The translations under genes were made by a program, and so were the position numbers. A DNA stretch of 37,818 bases, from the NCBI GenBank assembly GCA_029098265.1, contig JAQXNZ010000125.1:1-37818 (forward strand). The letters are read 5' to 3'. The notes beneath the pieces were generated by a model, which worked only from the letters and a program-made list of their open reading frames with translations, did not search any database and was not told where the DNA came from. Positions within the stretch are counted from its first letter, which is position 1; each line of letters opens with the position of its first letter. Below are positions 18,710 to 31,049 of this stretch, in pieces. The DNA comes from Clostridia bacterium. Its GTDB lineage: Bacteria > Bacillota > Clostridia > Lachnospirales > Anaerotignaceae.

Positions 18710-18888
18710 GCGTGCGGAGCACGCTAAGTCGAAAACAGGTTTTCGACTTGTATAAATTAAGGTATGAAAAGCCATTAGCAATAAATTTGCAGGCAAATTT
18801 TTGCAAAAGGCTTTTCTCCTCGGCGAAGAGCGCGGTCTCCGCCTGCGGATTCCATTTGGAAAACGCTTCGTTTTCCAAACCTTTCCGC
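18710..18888 (-). repeat. Full-length copy of the ~178-bp structured intergenic repeat (copy A)
   Basis: Read on the minus strand it has the same five helices, in the same order, as the copy at 29582-29757. I: TTTGGAAAACG/CGTTTTCCAAA (18879-18869, 18865-18855). II: GGCG/CGCC (18843-18840, 18825-18822) around the invariant core CGGAGACCGCGCTCTTCG (18841-18824). III: GAAAAGCC/GGCTTTTC (18816-18809, 18773-18766). IV: AAGTCGAAAAC/GTTTTCGACTT (18749-18739, 18736-18726). V: GCGTGC/GCACGC (18724-18719, 18715-18710). Open reading frames across it are by-products of the repeats. It directly follows the prfB stop. Confidence 0.75.
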
Positions 18889-18918
18889 TTAAAAATCCAA
18901 CTCATCTGGATTCTGAGA

Positions 18919-18957
18919 CGTGCAGAGCACGCTAAGTCGAAAACAGGTTTTCGACTT
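18919..18957 (-). repeat. Second helix IV-V module beside copy A
   Basis: Positions 18919-18957 repeat 18711-18749 with one mismatch in 39, exactly 208 bp away in the same orientation, duplicating helices IV and V. Between copy A and this module is another small hairpin, AATCCA/TGGATT (about 18894-18912); after it (on the plus strand) is GAAATC/GATTTC (18963-18976). This suggests partial tandem duplication or a nested second element. Confidence 0.8.
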
Positions 18958-20037: not shown

Positions 20038-20066
20038 TTGTAAAAATACGCAGGTTCTAGTATAAT
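20038..20066 (+). promoter_or_regulatory. Promoter of walRK
   Basis: TTGTAA (20038-20043) and perfect TATAAT (20061-20066) with a 17-base spacer, about 25 nt before the ribosome binding site of the response regulator gene. Confidence 0.85.
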
Positions 20067-20097: not shown

Positions 20098-20793
20098 ATG
20101 TCACAGACGGTTCTTGTTGTAGACGATGAAAAAAATATTGTTAATATAATTGCCTTTAACCTTAAAAGAGAGGGTTATGAGGTGCTGACGGCAGAGGACG
20201 GAGAAGAAGCCGTTGCCATTGCCGATGAAAAAAATCCCGACCTCATACTGCTGGATATAATGATGCCGAAAATGGACGGCTATGAAGCATGCAGAAAGAT
20301 AAGGGAAAAGCACAACATGCCCATAATAATGCTGACAGCCAAGGCAGAGGAGCTGGACAAGGTGCTCGGCCTTGAAATGGGCGCCGATGACTATGTCACA
20401 AAGCCCTTCGGCACAAGGGAGCTTATCGCAAGAGTAAAGGCAAATCTCAGACGTGCGGTAATAAAGGCGGATGCGCCTAAAAAATCGACTAATGTTCTTA
20501 CATTTAAAAATCTCGAAATTGACTTGGATAAGTTTGAAGCAAGAAAGGAAAATAAGGTTCTTGAGCTCACGTTCAGAGAGTTTGAACTGCTTAAATTCCT
20601 TGCGCAGAATCTCGGTCAGGTGTTTTCGAGGGAATCCCTGCTTGAAAAGGTATGGGGCTATGAGTATTACGGAGACGTGCGTACCGTTGACGTAACCGTT
20701 AGGAGACTGAGGGAAAAGCTGGAGGATAACCCCAGCAAGCCTGAATACATACTTACCAAGCGCGGCGTAGGCTACTATTTCGGAGGAAATTAA
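20098..20793 (+). CDS. walR: Response regulator, OmpR/PhoB family, WalR (YycF)-like
   Basis: A 231-residue regulator. The receiver domain (1-120) has the acidic pair Asp9-Asp10, the phosphoacceptor Asp53 in [11 protein letters not shown], and the conserved Thr and Lys in MLTAK and TKPFG. The C-terminal winged helix (about 130-231) contains [15 protein letters not shown] and [20 protein letters not shown]. Neighbouring yycH- and yycI-like genes identify it as the WalR branch rather than PhoP. In Bacillota WalR controls wall hydrolases through direct repeats of TGTWAH-N5-TGTWAH; matching repeats occur at 22654-22692 and 31022-31049. ATG at 20098 sits behind GGGGGT. Cotranscribed with the kinase 10 bp downstream. 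Confidence 0.93.
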
Positions 20794-20803
20794 GGTGATT
20801 TGA

Positions 20804-22606
20804 TTGAAAGGCATAAAGTGGAGACTTATAGCCATGTATTTGGGTCTCGTTTTTATCGTAATGATAGTCACCGGCTCATTTATATTGCTGAGTATGCAGA
20901 AAACTGAAACAGATAAAGCCAGAAGCCAGCTGGAGCTGTATGCCGAAAAGGTCAGCGAGCAGGTTGTAGAAAGCTACGATGAAGCCGATTTCCAAACGGG
21001 CATAGAGCAGTTTACACGAACAAGCTCCTCAGGCAGCCAGATACAGGGTAATATTATAAACGATAAGGGTGAAACCGTGGCTTCCACAACGGTGTCACAG
21101 CCGCCATTTCCCGATTATAAAAACTCGGTTGTAGGCTTGGCGCTGTCCGGCGAGAACGGCTTTGATGACTCCAGAAAGGACGACGAAAGCAACACCACAT
21201 GGATATGCTATGCCACACCGGCAATGACAATTAACGGCAATGTTAAATATATAGTCTATGCCCAGATGGATGCCTCGTCCATGCAGGAGAGCATGACCCA
21301 GACCACAAGAACAATTATTGTGGCGGTGCTTCTGGCACTGGTGCTGGCGGTACTCATGGCCTATGGCTTTGCCAGAACCATAACGGGCCCCATTCATCAG
21401 CTTACTCTTAAGGCAAAGCTTCTGGCGGAGGGTGACCTGAAACAGACCGTTGAGGTATATTCCGAGGACGAAATCGGTCAGCTTGCCGAAAGCTTCAACT
21501 ATATGGCTTCGGAGCTGAACAAAACCGTCGGCGAGACCTTTAGGGAGAAGAACAAGCTGGAAGCCATACTGCACAACATGACCGACGGAGTTATTTCCTT
21601 TGACAAGGACGGAAACATAAGCCATGCCAACACCGTTGCGGCGGAAATGCTGGAGGTGGATAAGCTGGACTTCACTCTTGATATGTTTACAAGGAAATAT
21701 GATTTGGAGCTGGACGAGTCCAATAACAACGAGGAGGAAGGTCAGGCGGTACAACTGCAGTATACATTCCCTGTGGGCAAAAAATATATAAATGCCAGCT
21801 TTTCACCCTATTTCAACGAGACGGAAGAAATAGAGGGAATAGTCGTTGTTTTGCAGGATATAACAAAACAGAAAAAGCTGGACGATATGCGAAAGGAATT
21901 TGTCGCCAACGTGTCCCACGAAATGAGAACGCCCCTGACAACAATCAAGAGCTATACAGAGACGCTCATGTACGGCGCCCTTGAGGAAAAGGACGTGGCA
22001 ATGGAGTTCCTGAACATAATAAATAATGAGACGGACCGTATGTCCTTCCTTGTGCGTGACCTGCTGCAGCTGTCCAGATTTGACAATAAGCAGGTGCAGT
22101 TCAAGTTCGGAAAGGTAAACATAAACGAGCTTATTTCCGACAACGTGCGACAGAACAAAATACATGCGGAAAATAAAAATCAGAAGCTTATTCTGGAGCT
22201 CTGGCCCGACAATGACGCCTATGTTGTTGCAGACAGAGACAGGGTTAACCAGGTAATAAACAATATAACAACAAACGCCATAAAGTACAGTCCCGAGGGA
22301 GCGACAGTAAGGATATACGTTACCGAGGACAAAAACTGGTACAAGATAAATGTGGCGGATACGGGTATGGGAATATCCAAGGAGGATCTGCCGAGAATAT
22401 TCGAGCGTTTCTACAGGGTCGATAAGGCCAGAAGCCGTGCTATGGGCGGCACCGGTCTGGGTCTTGCCATTGCCAAGGAAATAATGGAGGGCCATGACGG
22501 AAAGCTCACTGCCGAAAGTGAATACGGCAAGGGTACAACAATGACCATGTGGTTCCTCAAGGGTCAGGACAATAGGATAACCGATGACGGCGATGACTTT
22601 GAATAA
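20804..22606 (+). CDS. walK: Sensor histidine kinase, WalK (YycG)-like
   Basis: A 600-residue membrane kinase. TM1 is at about 9-29, an extracytoplasmic sensor domain at 30-165, and TM2 at about 168-190. A HAMP domain (about 190-245), a PAS domain (about 250-365) and a HisKA domain follow; FVANVSHEMRTPLTTIKSYT gives the phosphorylated His372. The ATPase domain has NQVINNITTNAIKYS, DTGMGIS and GGTGLGLAIAKE. This TM-sensor-TM-HAMP-PAS-kinase order is that of WalK. Translation probably starts at TTG 20804: AAGGTGAT precedes it by 8 bases, and the first ATG (20834) would remove part of TM1's basic flank. It phosphorylates the upstream response regulator. Confidence 0.93.
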   Translation: MKGIKWRLIAMYLGLVFIVMIVTGSFILLSMQKTETDKARSQLELYAEKVSEQVVESYDEADFQTGIEQFTRTSSSGSQIQGNIINDKGETVASTTVSQPPFPDYKNSVVGLALSGENGFDDSRKDDESNTTWICYATPAMTINGNVKYIVYAQMDASSMQESMTQTTRTIIVAVLLALVLAVLMAYGFARTITGPIHQLTLKAKLLAEGDLKQTVEVYSEDEIGQLAESFNYMASELNKTVGETFREKNKLEAILHNMTDGVISFDKDGNISHANTVAAEMLEVDKLDFTLDMFTRKYDLELDESNNNEEEGQAVQLQYTFPVGKKYINASFSPYFNETEEIEGIVVVLQDITKQKKLDDMRKEFVANVSHEMRTPLTTIKSYTETLMYGALEEKDVAMEFLNIINNETDRMSFLVRDLLQLSRFDNKQVQFKFGKVNINELISDNVRQNKIHAENKNQKLILELWPDNDAYVVADRDRVNQVINNITTNAIKYSPEGATVRIYVTEDKNWYKINVADTGMGISKEDLPRIFERFYRVDKARSRAMGGTGLGLAIAKEIMEGHDGKLTAESEYGKGTTMTMWFLKGQDNRITDDGDDFE

Positions 22607-22653: not shown

Positions 22654-22708
22654 TGTAATTTAATAGTAAGCTGAGTGTAATATAACTGTAACATAGAAAT
22701 TGTATAAT
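22654..22708 (+). promoter_or_regulatory. Internal promoter with four WalR-type half-sites
   Basis: Four hexamers start exactly 11 bp apart: TGTAAT (22654), AGTAAG (22665), TGTAAT (22676) and TGTAAC (22687). The last two form a perfect WalR box TGTAAT-N5-TGTAAC. A perfect -10, TATAAT (22703-22708), begins 10 bases after the box, and the expected -35 position is poor (ATATAA). This is the layout of an activator-dependent promoter. It would drive the secreted-protein gene and the yycH/yycI-like genes. Confidence 0.85.
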
Positions 22709-22775
22709 ATACTATGTCGGAAAGTATTACACGGTAGGGCGTCTGCCTTGCTGTGAAGCAAAGGAGGCGCATAGA

Positions 22776-23231
22776 ATGAGAAAAATTAAATTATTAGCAA
22801 TTCTCACAGTTATGATAACAATGCTTATCTCTGTAAATGCGTCTGCTGCTGTATATGACGGAGAACCCGGAAAAATAGAAATAACGGGCGGAATTAAAAT
22901 GGATAAGGCCTATGAGTCTACCTTCAATGACACAAGGACGATAACAGGCAGGTCCGAGTGCGGCACAAACATAATAATAAATGTCTGTACCGAGGACGAG
23001 GACGGTGTGCTTCAGATTGTGAAAACCTACAGCATAGAGGTGGGACTCAGCGGATATTTCTCAAAGAGCGTAAGGCTCTATGAGGGTGATAATATAATTG
23101 TCATAAGCACAGAGGACAACACTGCTACGGTGGTGGCGCATATAAAGAGAAAAAGCGAAGAAATAAAGAACATGCTGGAGCGGGGAATTTATATTCCGGG
23201 CAGTACGGCAAGGGTTTATTTCGCAGACTGA
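22776..23231 (+). CDS. Secreted Ig-like (Big/glucodextranase-B-like) domain protein
   Basis: A 151-residue exported protein. The signal peptide is basic then hydrophobic (MRKIKLLAILTVMITMLISV), with probable cleavage after NASA (about residue 24). The mature part has an Ig-like beta-sandwich pattern: ITGRSECGTNIIINVC, then GLSGYFSKSVRLYEGDNIIV. That is the 'gradient' of turn-strand features seen in Big and glucodextranase-B-like domains. No enzyme motif, anchor or lipobox is visible. AAAGGAGG lies 9 bases before ATG 22776. It sits between walK and a yycH-like gene and has a WalR-type promoter, so a role in sensing or shaping the wall is plausible but inferred. This position is not occupied in Bacillus walRKHI. 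Confidence 0.75.
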   Translation: MRKIKLLAILTVMITMLISVNASAAVYDGEPGKIEITGGIKMDKAYESTFNDTRTITGRSECGTNIIINVCTEDEDGVLQIVKTYSIEVGLSGYFSKSVRLYEGDNIIVISTEDNTATVVAHIKRKSEEIKNMLERGIYIPGSTARVYFAD

Positions 23232-23272
23232 AAATTGCCGTTTATTAATAACGGCTGAAATGCGGTGATCAG

Positions 23273-24652
23273 ATGAAGTATAACTGGCTGACAAATCTGG
23301 CTATATTTATACTGGCCGCCGCGGCTGTTTTTCAGACGGGGAAGTTATGGCTTGGGAATACCGACAGCCATAACTTTTTTTATTCCTTTTATTCCTCAGC
23401 GGGCAGGGGTATAAGTGAGACTGATAAAAGCTATGACATAATAGAGCCTGAAAAAACAGTCGTAGGCTACGGCAACAGAAAATTTAATATGCTGTATTCC
23501 GATAAGGAAAGCTCCTCAGTAACATCGCTGTGTGAAAATGTTATAGGTGATGTGCTCAGAAACGGAAGCTTTGATTCTGTATCCGATATTAGCTGGAGCG
23601 AATATATAGAGGGAAAGGCGGTTGTTATGAAATATCCCTTCTATATGTCCTCTAGGGAATATTTGAGAGGCTACGGACTGAGCAACAGCTCATTTTCGGA
23701 CAATGTTAAGAGCATCAACTATATAGTTGTGGTGCCGGGCAGCGGAAGCTCAGATATGACTTGCTGTTATTTCATAGACAGCAGTACTTCGGAGGCCTAT
23801 AAGTTTACCCTGACGGGTGCGGAATCTGCGGCGGCACTGTATAATTCCATACAGAATATGCAGTATTCGGGCGGAAGGCTGGAATACATATCGACGGTAC
23901 AGAGCGGAATGAATATATTCGACAGTATATATGTGCCCCAGTGGACCGACGGCGAGTATGAATACAATGCGTTAAAGGCAGTCAACCAATTTGCCGATGA
24001 AAGCGGAGAGGTGGACATTGATAAGCTGGGAGAATGTGCAGACAGCTTCTTCAGCAACTATGTGTCCGGTGATGATGCCTCGGTGGTAAACGATATATAC
24101 ACATTCAGCAATGACAATATCGTTGTAAAATACTATGAAAACGGGGTTCTGGAATACTATAACTACACAACGGGCTCACCTGATGCAGAGCAGACCCTTT
24201 CCAGTGCCTATACCATAAGCCAAAGCTTTATAAAGAAGGATAAATATATTGTCAATGATATATATCTTTCGGGAGCTGAAACAAGAAACGAAGGCCTTGT
24301 GCTCTACTATGACTATGCGGTTGATGATATACCGATTGAGTTTTCCGGAGAATTTACGGAAAGAACGGGCATGAGCCATGCCGTTGAGATAGTCGTAAGC
24401 AATGACAGCGTTAAGCGCTACAAGCGCTATGTGACCGAATTCAGGACTGACGAGGAAGAACAGGCCTATGTCAATGTGGATATGATTTCCGCATGGGACG
24501 ACGCCATAATGAACTATACGGGAACCGATGATGTTACCTCGGTTTCGGATATGTCCATAGGCTACTATTTTGAGGACGGGGAAGATGTGCTTTATATCAA
24601 ATGGTTTACATCGGTCAACGGCGAGACGATAGTCGGAGAAACATATAGATGA
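23273..24652 (+). CDS. yycH: YycH-like WalK-associated membrane protein
   Basis: A 459-residue protein with one N-terminal transmembrane helix (about 5-25, MKYNWLTNLAIFILAAAAVF) and a large, Tyr/Ser/Asp-rich extracytoplasmic domain. Sequence similarity to Bacillus YycH is low by eye. The topology, size and position (after walK, before a YycI-like gene) are those of YycH, which contacts WalK in the membrane and modulates its activity. Start ATG 23273, with GGTGAT upstream. It is 41 bp after the secreted Ig-like gene and 10 bp before the YycI-like start, so it belongs to the same transcript. Confidence 0.7.
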   Translation: MKYNWLTNLAIFILAAAAVFQTGKLWLGNTDSHNFFYSFYSSAGRGISETDKSYDIIEPEKTVVGYGNRKFNMLYSDKESSSVTSLCENVIGDVLRNGSFDSVSDISWSEYIEGKAVVMKYPFYMSSREYLRGYGLSNSSFSDNVKSINYIVVVPGSGSSDMTCCYFIDSSTSEAYKFTLTGAESAAALYNSIQNMQYSGGRLEYISTVQSGMNIFDSIYVPQWTDGEYEYNALKAVNQFADESGEVDIDKLGECADSFFSNYVSGDDASVVNDIYTFSNDNIVVKYYENGVLEYYNYTTGSPDAEQTLSSAYTISQSFIKKDKYIVNDIYLSGAETRNEGLVLYYDYAVDDIPIEFSGEFTERTGMSHAVEIVVSNDSVKRYKRYVTEFRTDEEEQAYVNVDMISAWDDAIMNYTGTDDVTSVSDMSIGYYFEDGEDVLYIKWFTSVNGETIVGETYR

Positions 24653-24662
24653 GGTGTTGGCT

Positions 24663-25562
24663 TTGGACTGGAAAAGAGCTAAAAAAATAATAATTCTGGC
24701 GCTGATTATCCTCAATGCCGCACTGTTTTTTACAAACAGGTACTATAACAGCGATTACCGTCTTACGCAGGCCGAGGAGGAAGCGGTCTATAAGCTGCTG
24801 TATCAGAACGGCATAGGAATATATACCGAGCTTATAGAGGACTATAAACCCATGAAGCAGCTGGACGTTACGGTGACATCGCCCGATGTAGATGAGCTGA
24901 AATCCATGTTCTTTGACGATGGCGAGAATGTGGAGACCGAGGTGGAATTTGACCAGGTGATACTGAGAAGCTATTCGGCCCGGCTGACAGCCGAGGACAG
25001 CAAGCTGAGTTATGTATGCCCCACGGGAGCGGGTGAGCTAAGCGGTGTCGGAAAGGATGCGGCTAAAAGACTGTCGGACAGCTTCATCAAAAAAATGGGC
25101 GACAGCTATTCGGAATATGTGCTTGACAGGATAACCTACAAAAACGGCGGATATCAGCTGGAATACTATGAATATTACAAGGGCTATAAAATATTCTGCA
25201 ACTACTGCATATTCTTTATAGACGACAGCGGCATAAGGACAATCGAGTCGGAAAACTATGATATCAACGGCTTTACCGAGGAAAGCAGGGATATATGCGC
25301 TTCATCGGAGGCAGTGCTGACATATATCTATTCCGATAAGGATGGAAACAACAAAGGCAAGTTTATTGAGGATATGGAAATAGGCTATGACCTAAGAGAG
25401 TCCGAGCAGATAGTCGAGGGCTCAAAGATAAGGCTTGTTCCCTGCTACTGTATTTATATGATAAACGATGATGAACCGTTTATAGTATACGCCTATACAA
25501 ACACCGCAAAGAACAGCACACAGACCCAGGCTGCCGATACGGCGGCACAGGGCGCTCAATAG
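24663..25562 (+). CDS. yycI: YycI-like two-component system regulatory protein
   Basis: A 299-residue protein starting MDWKRAKKIIILALIILNAA, the typical YycI opening: a short basic tail followed by a single membrane anchor. The extracytoplasmic part has an aromatic-rich region (YKNGGYQLEYYEYYKGYKIF) and a C-terminal GSKIRLVPCYCIYMI block resembling the YycI/YycH fold. In Bacillus YycI forms a complex with YycH and WalK. I chose TTG at 24663 because GAGGTG (24651-24656) is 6 bases upstream and the family begins MDW; a GTG at 24654 would overlap that site. The C-terminus ends in an Ala/Gln/Thr-rich tail. A terminator follows. Confidence 0.75.
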   Translation: MDWKRAKKIIILALIILNAALFFTNRYYNSDYRLTQAEEEAVYKLLYQNGIGIYTELIEDYKPMKQLDVTVTSPDVDELKSMFFDDGENVETEVEFDQVILRSYSARLTAEDSKLSYVCPTGAGELSGVGKDAAKRLSDSFIKKMGDSYSEYVLDRITYKNGGYQLEYYEYYKGYKIFCNYCIFFIDDSGIRTIESENYDINGFTEESRDICASSEAVLTYIYSDKDGNNKGKFIEDMEIGYDLRESEQIVEGSKIRLVPCYCIYMINDDEPFIVYAYTNTAKNSTQTQAADTAAQGAQ

Positions 25563-25576
25563 AATATTTTATGACG

Positions 25577-25608
25577 GCGGCAGGATAATTTTTCTGCCGC
25601 TGTATTTT
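25577..25608 (+). terminator. Terminator of the wal cluster
   Basis: GCGGCAG (25577-25583) pairs with CTGCCGC (25594-25600) around a 10-base loop, followed by TGTATTTTT. Confidence 0.8.
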
Positions 25609-29799: not shown

Positions 29800-30783
29800 T
29801 TATTGAAGAATGTATACCGTTACCGTACGTCTGCCCCAGGCATACGCTTCGTTAACGGAATTGTAACAAAGGTCGATACGACGGCCGTCAATTGCTCCTC
29901 CGGTATCCTCGGCTGTCCCGATCCCGTATCCGGGAATATAGAGCTTTGAGCCGAGAGGAATAACATTAGGATCAACTGCTACGGCACCTCGTACCGCCGC
30001 CGTTCCGGTTGCGGTGGTCGAAGTACAGCCTTCGTCAAATCTGGTGTAGCCCGTTGCCACGACCGTAAGAGATTTTGTATATTTAAAATCTCCTGCGGGA
30101 GTTGATACCATACTGGCGGTACCTCTTTCAATAATACAGGTTACAGGCTCGGTAACTACACTGCGGCTTATCTCAGTTGAGTTAGTAAGCTGACCCCCGA
30201 CATAAGTCTCCTCACTGACCACCTCGACAAGGCCGTCTGAACCCTCCTGTATTACTCTTTCGGTACCCTTTGCAAGATCAGAAGTATCTCTGTATTCTAT
30301 TGATTTTTCAATTTTTTCGTACTTTGTAGCTTCTCTGACAAGGGTGGATGACAGCTCTACGATCATTCCGTTTGTCAGAGGTGTGTCCTCGGTAATATCC
30401 TTTGCAAGATAATAATGAAGATTTTCATAGTCGCCCGAAAGGCTTTCGAGAAGCTCTCCCACGGTAAGGGAAGTTGTTTGCACCATGCGGGGAACTCCGT
30501 CATAGTCGATCATAACAGTAACGGAAGGCTTAATCTGTATTACGTCGCCATCCTCTACTATATGGTCTAATGTATAGTTAAGTTCATCATCTTCCGAAAT
30601 AGTTATTTCCTGAAGTTCAAGAAGTTTTTTAACTGATACCGGTTCAGTTAAGTTAGCTGTTGATTTTTGTGTTCCTTCAATAATTGTTACATTCAGACTT
30701 TCTCCGCTGTAGGCAGAAACAGTTCCGCCGAACATTGCCAATAACCCAATCACGATAGCGATTACTCTAAGTCGTTTTGTCAT
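29800..30783 (-). CDS. yabE: YabE-like secreted wall-active protein: DUF348, G5 and 3D domains
   Basis: A 327-residue exported protein. Signal peptide about 1-25 (MTKRLRVIAIVIGLLAMFGG). Two DUF348 repeats (about 28-80 and 82-140), a G5 domain (about 143-220), then the C-terminal 3D domain (about 230-327), whose three aspartates are visible in VAVDPNVIPLGS, EDTGGAI and RIDLC. In 3D proteins these form a lytic-transglycosylase-like active site for peptidoglycan remodelling. ATG 30783 has AAGGAGGA. The metG-tatD-yabE order equals Bacillus metS-yabD-yabE. A WalR-type array and long leader lie upstream; YocH, another 3D protein, is a known WalR target in Bacillus. Confidence 0.9.
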   Translation of the reverse strand: MTKRLRVIAIVIGLLAMFGGTVSAYSGESLNVTIIEGTQKSTANLTEPVSVKKLLELQEITISEDDELNYTLDHIVEDGDVIQIKPSVTVMIDYDGVPRMVQTTSLTVGELLESLSGDYENLHYYLAKDITEDTPLTNGMIVELSSTLVREATKYEKIEKSIEYRDTSDLAKGTERVIQEGSDGLVEVVSEETYVGGQLTNSTEISRSVVTEPVTCIIERGTASMVSTPAGDFKYTKSLTVVATGYTRFDEGCTSTTATGTAAVRGAVAVDPNVIPLGSKLYIPGYGIGTAEDTGGAIDGRRIDLCYNSVNEAYAWGRRTVTVYILQ

Positions 30784-31002: not shown

Positions 31003-31049
31003 ACTATACGCAACAATTATATTAACACAAATGTAACAAATATGCAACA
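31003..31049 (-). promoter_or_regulatory. WalR-type direct repeats and promoter of yabE
   Basis: On the minus strand TGTTGC (31049-31044), TGTTAC (31038-31033) and TGTTAA (31027-31022) are spaced exactly 11 bp; the last two are a perfect TGTWAH-N5-TGTWAH box. -10 candidates are TATAGT (31008-31003) or TATAAT (31021-31016). The array directly follows the tatD stop codon. Orientation relative to transcription equals that of the array at 22654-22692. Confidence 0.75.

Follow-up and report, generated by a model that had tools for sequence, protein, structure and literature searches.

The wal locus and its accessory operon

The window, by which we mean the whole stretch of 37,818 nucleotides analysed here from a genome of the Anaerotignaceae, carries a walRK gene pair followed by genes for a secreted protein, yycH and yycI. 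An array of four short half-sites with a period of 11 bp lies between walK and the secreted-protein gene, ahead of a -10 element. The features, all on the forward (+) strand, are:

20038 to 20066, +: predicted walRK promoter, TTGTAA-17-TATAAT, with no paired WalR box
20098 to 20793, +: walR (yycF), the predicted binder of the array
20804 to 22606, +: walK (yycG), sensor kinase with HAMP, PAS, HisKA and HATPase domains
22654 to 22659, +: half-site 1, TGTAAT, at about -61 to -56; TGT core in 54/54 orthologous promoters
22665 to 22670, +: half-site 2, AGTAAG, at about -50 to -45; conserved core GTAAG
22676 to 22681, +: half-site 3, TGTAAT, at about -39 to -34; first half of a perfect WalR box
22687 to 22692, +: half-site 4, TGTAAC, at about -28 to -23; second half of the WalR box
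22703 to 22708, +: -10 element TATAAT, 10 bp after half-site 4; predicted start near 22715
22776 to 23231, +: secreted protein of 151 aa, signal peptide and Ig-like beta-sandwich; good ribosome site AAAGGAGG at 22760-22767
23273 to 24652, +: yycH (walH), membrane-anchored WalK modulator; fold match to B. subtilis YycH (2fgt)
24654 to 25562, +: yycI (walI); Pfam PF09648 in 21/35 relatives
25574 to 25603, +: strong intrinsic terminator that ends the operon

WalR scores 352 bits against the NCBIfam YycF model NF040534, above its cut-off of 340, and WalK finds its best match in NF033092 at 509.9 bits, though below the cut-off of 725; its domain order and gene position fit the assignment, and the wal cluster setting proposed in the earlier note holds on this evidence. 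The same note had placed yycHI-like genes downstream of the array, which is borne out by fold for YycH and by the Pfam matches of its relatives for YycI. The AlphaFold model of YycH (pLDDT 85), with a membrane anchor at N-terminal residues 5-27, matches 2fgt (Foldseek E 5e-15) and the WalK-YycH model 9a5d_B (E 6e-18), so that its identity is supported by the modelled fold; Pfam YycH is absent among the families matched by 34 yycH-like members at E 1, and a profile of the family has no match among PDB sequences. The best PF09648 match among the YycI relatives has an E of 3e-12; the window copy itself does not match this family, and the YycI-like family profile finds only chance matches among PDB sequences. 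By comparison with relatives, the real start of yycI is probably the TTG at 24663. The secreted protein has a conserved C-terminal motif and a single Ig-like beta-sandwich, but fold comparison returns only the common Ig-like sandwich, with Z near 10 to many proteins including glucodextranase domain B, so no function follows from it.

The next gene begins at about 25736, past the terminator, with promoter-like sites of its own, and, judged from these signals, a single complete transcription unit would extend from 22715 to 25603. Farther upstream, a repeated segment (gcgtgcggagcacgctaagtcgaaaacaggttttcgactt) at 18711-18950 of the window lies between two genes and is apparently an intergenic repeat element.

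Architecture of the array promoter

The four half-sites and the TATAAT lie exactly where the earlier note had read them, with half-sites beginning at 22654, 22665, 22676 and 22687, and, taking TATAAT as the -10, all four fall on one face of the helix. Boxes 3 and 4 (TGTAAT-ATAAC-TGTAAC) agree with the WalR direct repeat TGTWAH-N5-TGTWAH without a mismatch, so the description of the last pair as a perfect WalR box is correct. The wider description of four WalR-type half-sites needs a qualification: the sites are real and conserved in all 54 orthologous promoters, but box 2 (AGTAAG) does not itself match TGTWAH. As the family keeps its GTAAG core throughout, we regard this box as a real element. 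Likewise, the last pair is indeed centred on the -35 position, as had been claimed, but it does not take the place of a recognisable -35: at 16-18 bp, the best match to TTGACA is at most 3/6 in every one of the 54 family promoters. Lack of a -35 hexamer is expected for an activator-dependent promoter.

This layout, with sites over the -35 region, a constant 10-bp gap to the -10 and no consensus -35, is that of a class II, PhoB-type promoter. PhoB-activated promoters with tandem pho boxes, such as that of E. coli pstS, likewise have four half-sites spaced by 11 bp over the -35, about 10 bp to the -10 and no consensus -35. The array thus shares with pstS the number of half-sites, their period, the coverage of the -35, the gap and the missing hexamer, and differs in the half-site itself (TGTAAY here, TGTCAT for PhoB), in the regulator and in the target.

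Conservation and association with the secreted-protein gene

Of the 58 family genomes, 52 gave a match to the secreted protein, and two more (G019 and G021) did so when relatives served as queries. All four boxes, their spacing and the 10-bp gap between box 4 and the -10 are kept in 54/54 orthologous promoters; even in the most decayed array (G043) the period is intact, and the array sequence of Anaerotignum sp. MSJ-24 is identical to that of the window. When the 54 promoters are aligned on the array, the boxes and the -10 carry about 1.3-1.5 bits per column, against 0.11 in the preceding 40 bases and 0.14 in the following 24. The search pattern that located 49 of the 54 specified boxes 3-4 and the -10, so these columns reflect selection in part; boxes 1-2 lie outside that pattern, and zero promoters were discarded.

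Genomes with rearranged loci separate the array from its neighbours. Where the secreted gene and yycH lie apart from walRK, on other contigs or 17 kb away on the opposite strand (G014, G016, G040, G041), the array is still upstream of them, and where walK is followed directly by yycH and the secreted gene is absent (G054, G036), the two genes have no array between them. The array tracks the operon with the secreted-protein gene rather than the kinase or yycHI alone, for loci with yycHI but no secreted gene lack it; the earlier note had missed this point. Of 295 genomes in the order, 77 carry the array, and the secreted protein family is present in 76 of those, compared with 85 of the 218 genomes without the array (Fisher p ~1e-23, which overstates the number of independent events because the genomes are related). 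A scan of DNA alone over 84,980 species gave, among the 80 matches listed, 45 that precede the secreted gene, yycH or yycI, these including Anaerotignum, strain ASF356, Tyzzerella An114, Defluviitalea, Epulonipiscium-labelled and Tissierellaceae entries. Several of these operons (L175, L190, L244) have no walRK in the upstream stretch examined.

No clear terminator was seen between walK and the array, so read-through from walK may, on the sequence, also supply yycHI. As the sole source of yycHI expression, read-through from walRK was rejected as insufficient, because detached operons retain the array.

The probable regulator of the array

The boxes fit the WalR consensus, and the half-site is the published WalR half-site; this consensus has been applied to both B. 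subtilis and C. difficile (PMC9210968). Elsewhere in the source genome, WalR boxes precede genes for SH3-NlpC/P60, 3D/G5, CAP and VanW/G5 proteins, which by analogy is the classical type of WalR regulon. WalR is probably the protein that binds the array.

The alternative with most in its favour is a paralogous OmpR-family response regulator (G000:C88) that would bind the array instead of WalR or together with it, and would place the operon under a second envelope system. This protein is 55% identical to WalR, has a nearly identical recognition helix (RTVDVHVRRLREK), is near-universal (55/58 family genomes) and also has YycF as its best NCBIfam match, below the cut-off (287 vs 340). We tried to exclude it by its distribution, which failed, as it is nearly as widespread as WalR. 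We nevertheless consider it an unlikely binder: within and outside the family the operon recurs beside walRK and in the loci read never beside the paralogue, the half-site is the one published for WalR, and the remaining boxes of the genome are at WalR-type targets. The paralogue is encoded in an operon with a kinase and a lipoprotein (L171 817-3891, on G000:C88) that is near-universal in the family and WalRK-like.

Two other sites in the source genome deserve mention. A second exact TGTWAH pair in the window (31022-31038, - strand) is 239 bp upstream of a gene (29800-30783, - strand) whose product, a 3D/G5-domain protein, is similar to YocH, a WalR target. A WalR box at L009 1501-1517 (G000:C38) lies 188 bp before the gene for a small RelA/SpoT-type synthetase; sasA of B. 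subtilis is under WalR repression (PMC6853874).

Probable sign of regulation and the proposed feedback loop

We propose that the array serves as promoter for an operon of three genes, encoding the secreted Ig-like protein, YycH and YycI. Phosphorylated WalR would bind the four 11-bp-spaced half-sites as two tandem dimers, the inner of which would cover the -35 region and end 10 bp before TATAAT, and would bring in RNA polymerase by class II activation, in the manner of PhoB on tandem pho boxes. How much YycH, YycI and secreted protein is made would then depend on WalRK activity, and the loop would close on the modulators of WalK rather than on walRK. The prediction in the earlier note of direct WalR activation of these modulator genes is supported in this form.

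By analogy with PhoB, activation is the likely sign of this control. WalR might instead repress, the inner dimer overlapping the -35 to -10 region and blocking polymerase so that high WalR activity lowers YycHI; half-site 4 does lie between the -35 and the -10. That reading is improbable, as there is no -35 through which polymerase could use the promoter independently of an activator, three of the four boxes are at or upstream of -34, and the constant 10-bp gap is the geometry of PhoB-activated promoters. In S. aureus, position sets the sign of WalR action, with sites upstream of the -35 activating and those between the -35 and the -10 associated with repression (PMC10746227).

Because YycHI act on WalK in Bacilli where tested, we infer that the loop feeds back on WalK. 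The effect of YycHI on WalK is inhibitory in B. subtilis and activating in S. aureus (PMC10746227), which would allow the loop either sign. Altogether, we put at roughly 0.7 the probability that the array is a class II PhoB-like promoter by which WalR controls the secreted Ig-like protein and YycHI, with feedback on WalK.

Rarity of the array and related sites

The genome-wide motif search that the earlier note had suggested was run with reversed patterns as controls, and it finds the promoter form essentially once per genome. The 2.14-Mb source genome has 15 copies of TGTAAY-N5-TGTAAY and none of its reversed control; for the looser TGTWAH-N5-TGTWAH the counts are 38 and 11. Three GTAA units at an 11-bp period are unique to the array within the source genome, and four such units occur about once per family genome, with a single control match, in one genome. 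The promoter form, TGTAAY-N5-TGTAAY-N10-TATAMT, has 56 matches in 51 of the 58 family genomes, all but about six of them at the secreted-protein gene, while its reversed control has 0 matches in these genomes and also in the 295 of the order. That the repeats arose by chance, or from the AT-richness of intergenic DNA, has a negligible probability: single TGTWAH pairs do arise randomly, as the 11 reversed matches show, but the promoter-form controls are 0 in both the 58 and the 295 genomes, and conservation in 54/54 amid random flanks rules out such an origin.

Comparable arrays stand before other genes. In Clostridia MAGs, a TGTAAY array with TATAAT precedes a conserved protein of ~365 aa with the sequence MxIKRxLKREGIEI... 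(L189, L198, L204, L216, L218, L225) and no Pfam match in the one copy scanned. TGTAA arrays at L228 4137-4179 and L248 3202-3244 are directly upstream of a WalR-like regulator and kinase, where their position makes direct autoregulation possible in another lineage. Four genomes of a single genus (L083-L086) also have ladders of four to six GTAA units with an 11-bp period outside the walRK locus.

Comparison with known wal systems

In B. subtilis the wal genes are co-transcribed, and S. aureus walRKHI has two promoters upstream of walR and no WalR site there (PMC4801191); WalH sequences are reported to be poorly conserved (PMC4801191). The wal operons of C. difficile and other Firmicutes are stated not to be autoregulated (PMC9210968). 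The contrast with Bacillus drawn in the earlier note is documented by these accounts of S. aureus and B. subtilis (PMC4801191) and of C. difficile and other Firmicutes (PMC9210968). Autoregulation of walRK itself by WalR was also rejected here, since none of 35 loci (0/35) has a WalR box upstream of walR. In the open-access papers searched, a part of the whole literature, no account of yycHI under WalR control was found.

The array has in common with the WalR boxes of B. subtilis and S. aureus (TGTWAH-N5-TGTWAH) the half-site, the 11-bp direct repeat, a YycF-type regulator and cell-wall genes elsewhere in the genome as targets, but has four half-sites and would control wal accessory genes. Like the walRKHIJ operon of Bacilli, the locus runs from walR and walK to yycH and yycI; unlike it, the locus has an internal promoter, an extra gene for a secreted Ig-like protein between walK and yycH and a terminator after yycI, and its accessory operon can be separate from walRK. 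The walA-walR-walK-truA2 operon of C. difficile is another wal operon from the Clostridia that encodes an additional exported protein (PMC9210968), but WalA is a lipoprotein encoded upstream of walR; that paper does not mention yycH and reports no autoregulation by RNA-seq (PMC9210968).

Implications

WalRK is an essential system for envelope control in many Bacillota, and its operons are described as lacking autoregulation. If our reading is true, a conserved promoter of WalR type in front of the modulator genes would create a feedback circuit through YycHI. The secreted protein, as yet uncharacterised, is a candidate for a third accessory factor, and the array offers a near-unique DNA signature. 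On balance, we favour the view that in the Anaerotignaceae and related Clostridia WalRK has an extra, undescribed component, a secreted Ig-like protein made together with YycH and YycI from a WalR-activated promoter, and that a dedicated transcriptional feedback, unknown in Bacilli, would set the level of the extracellular sensing complex.
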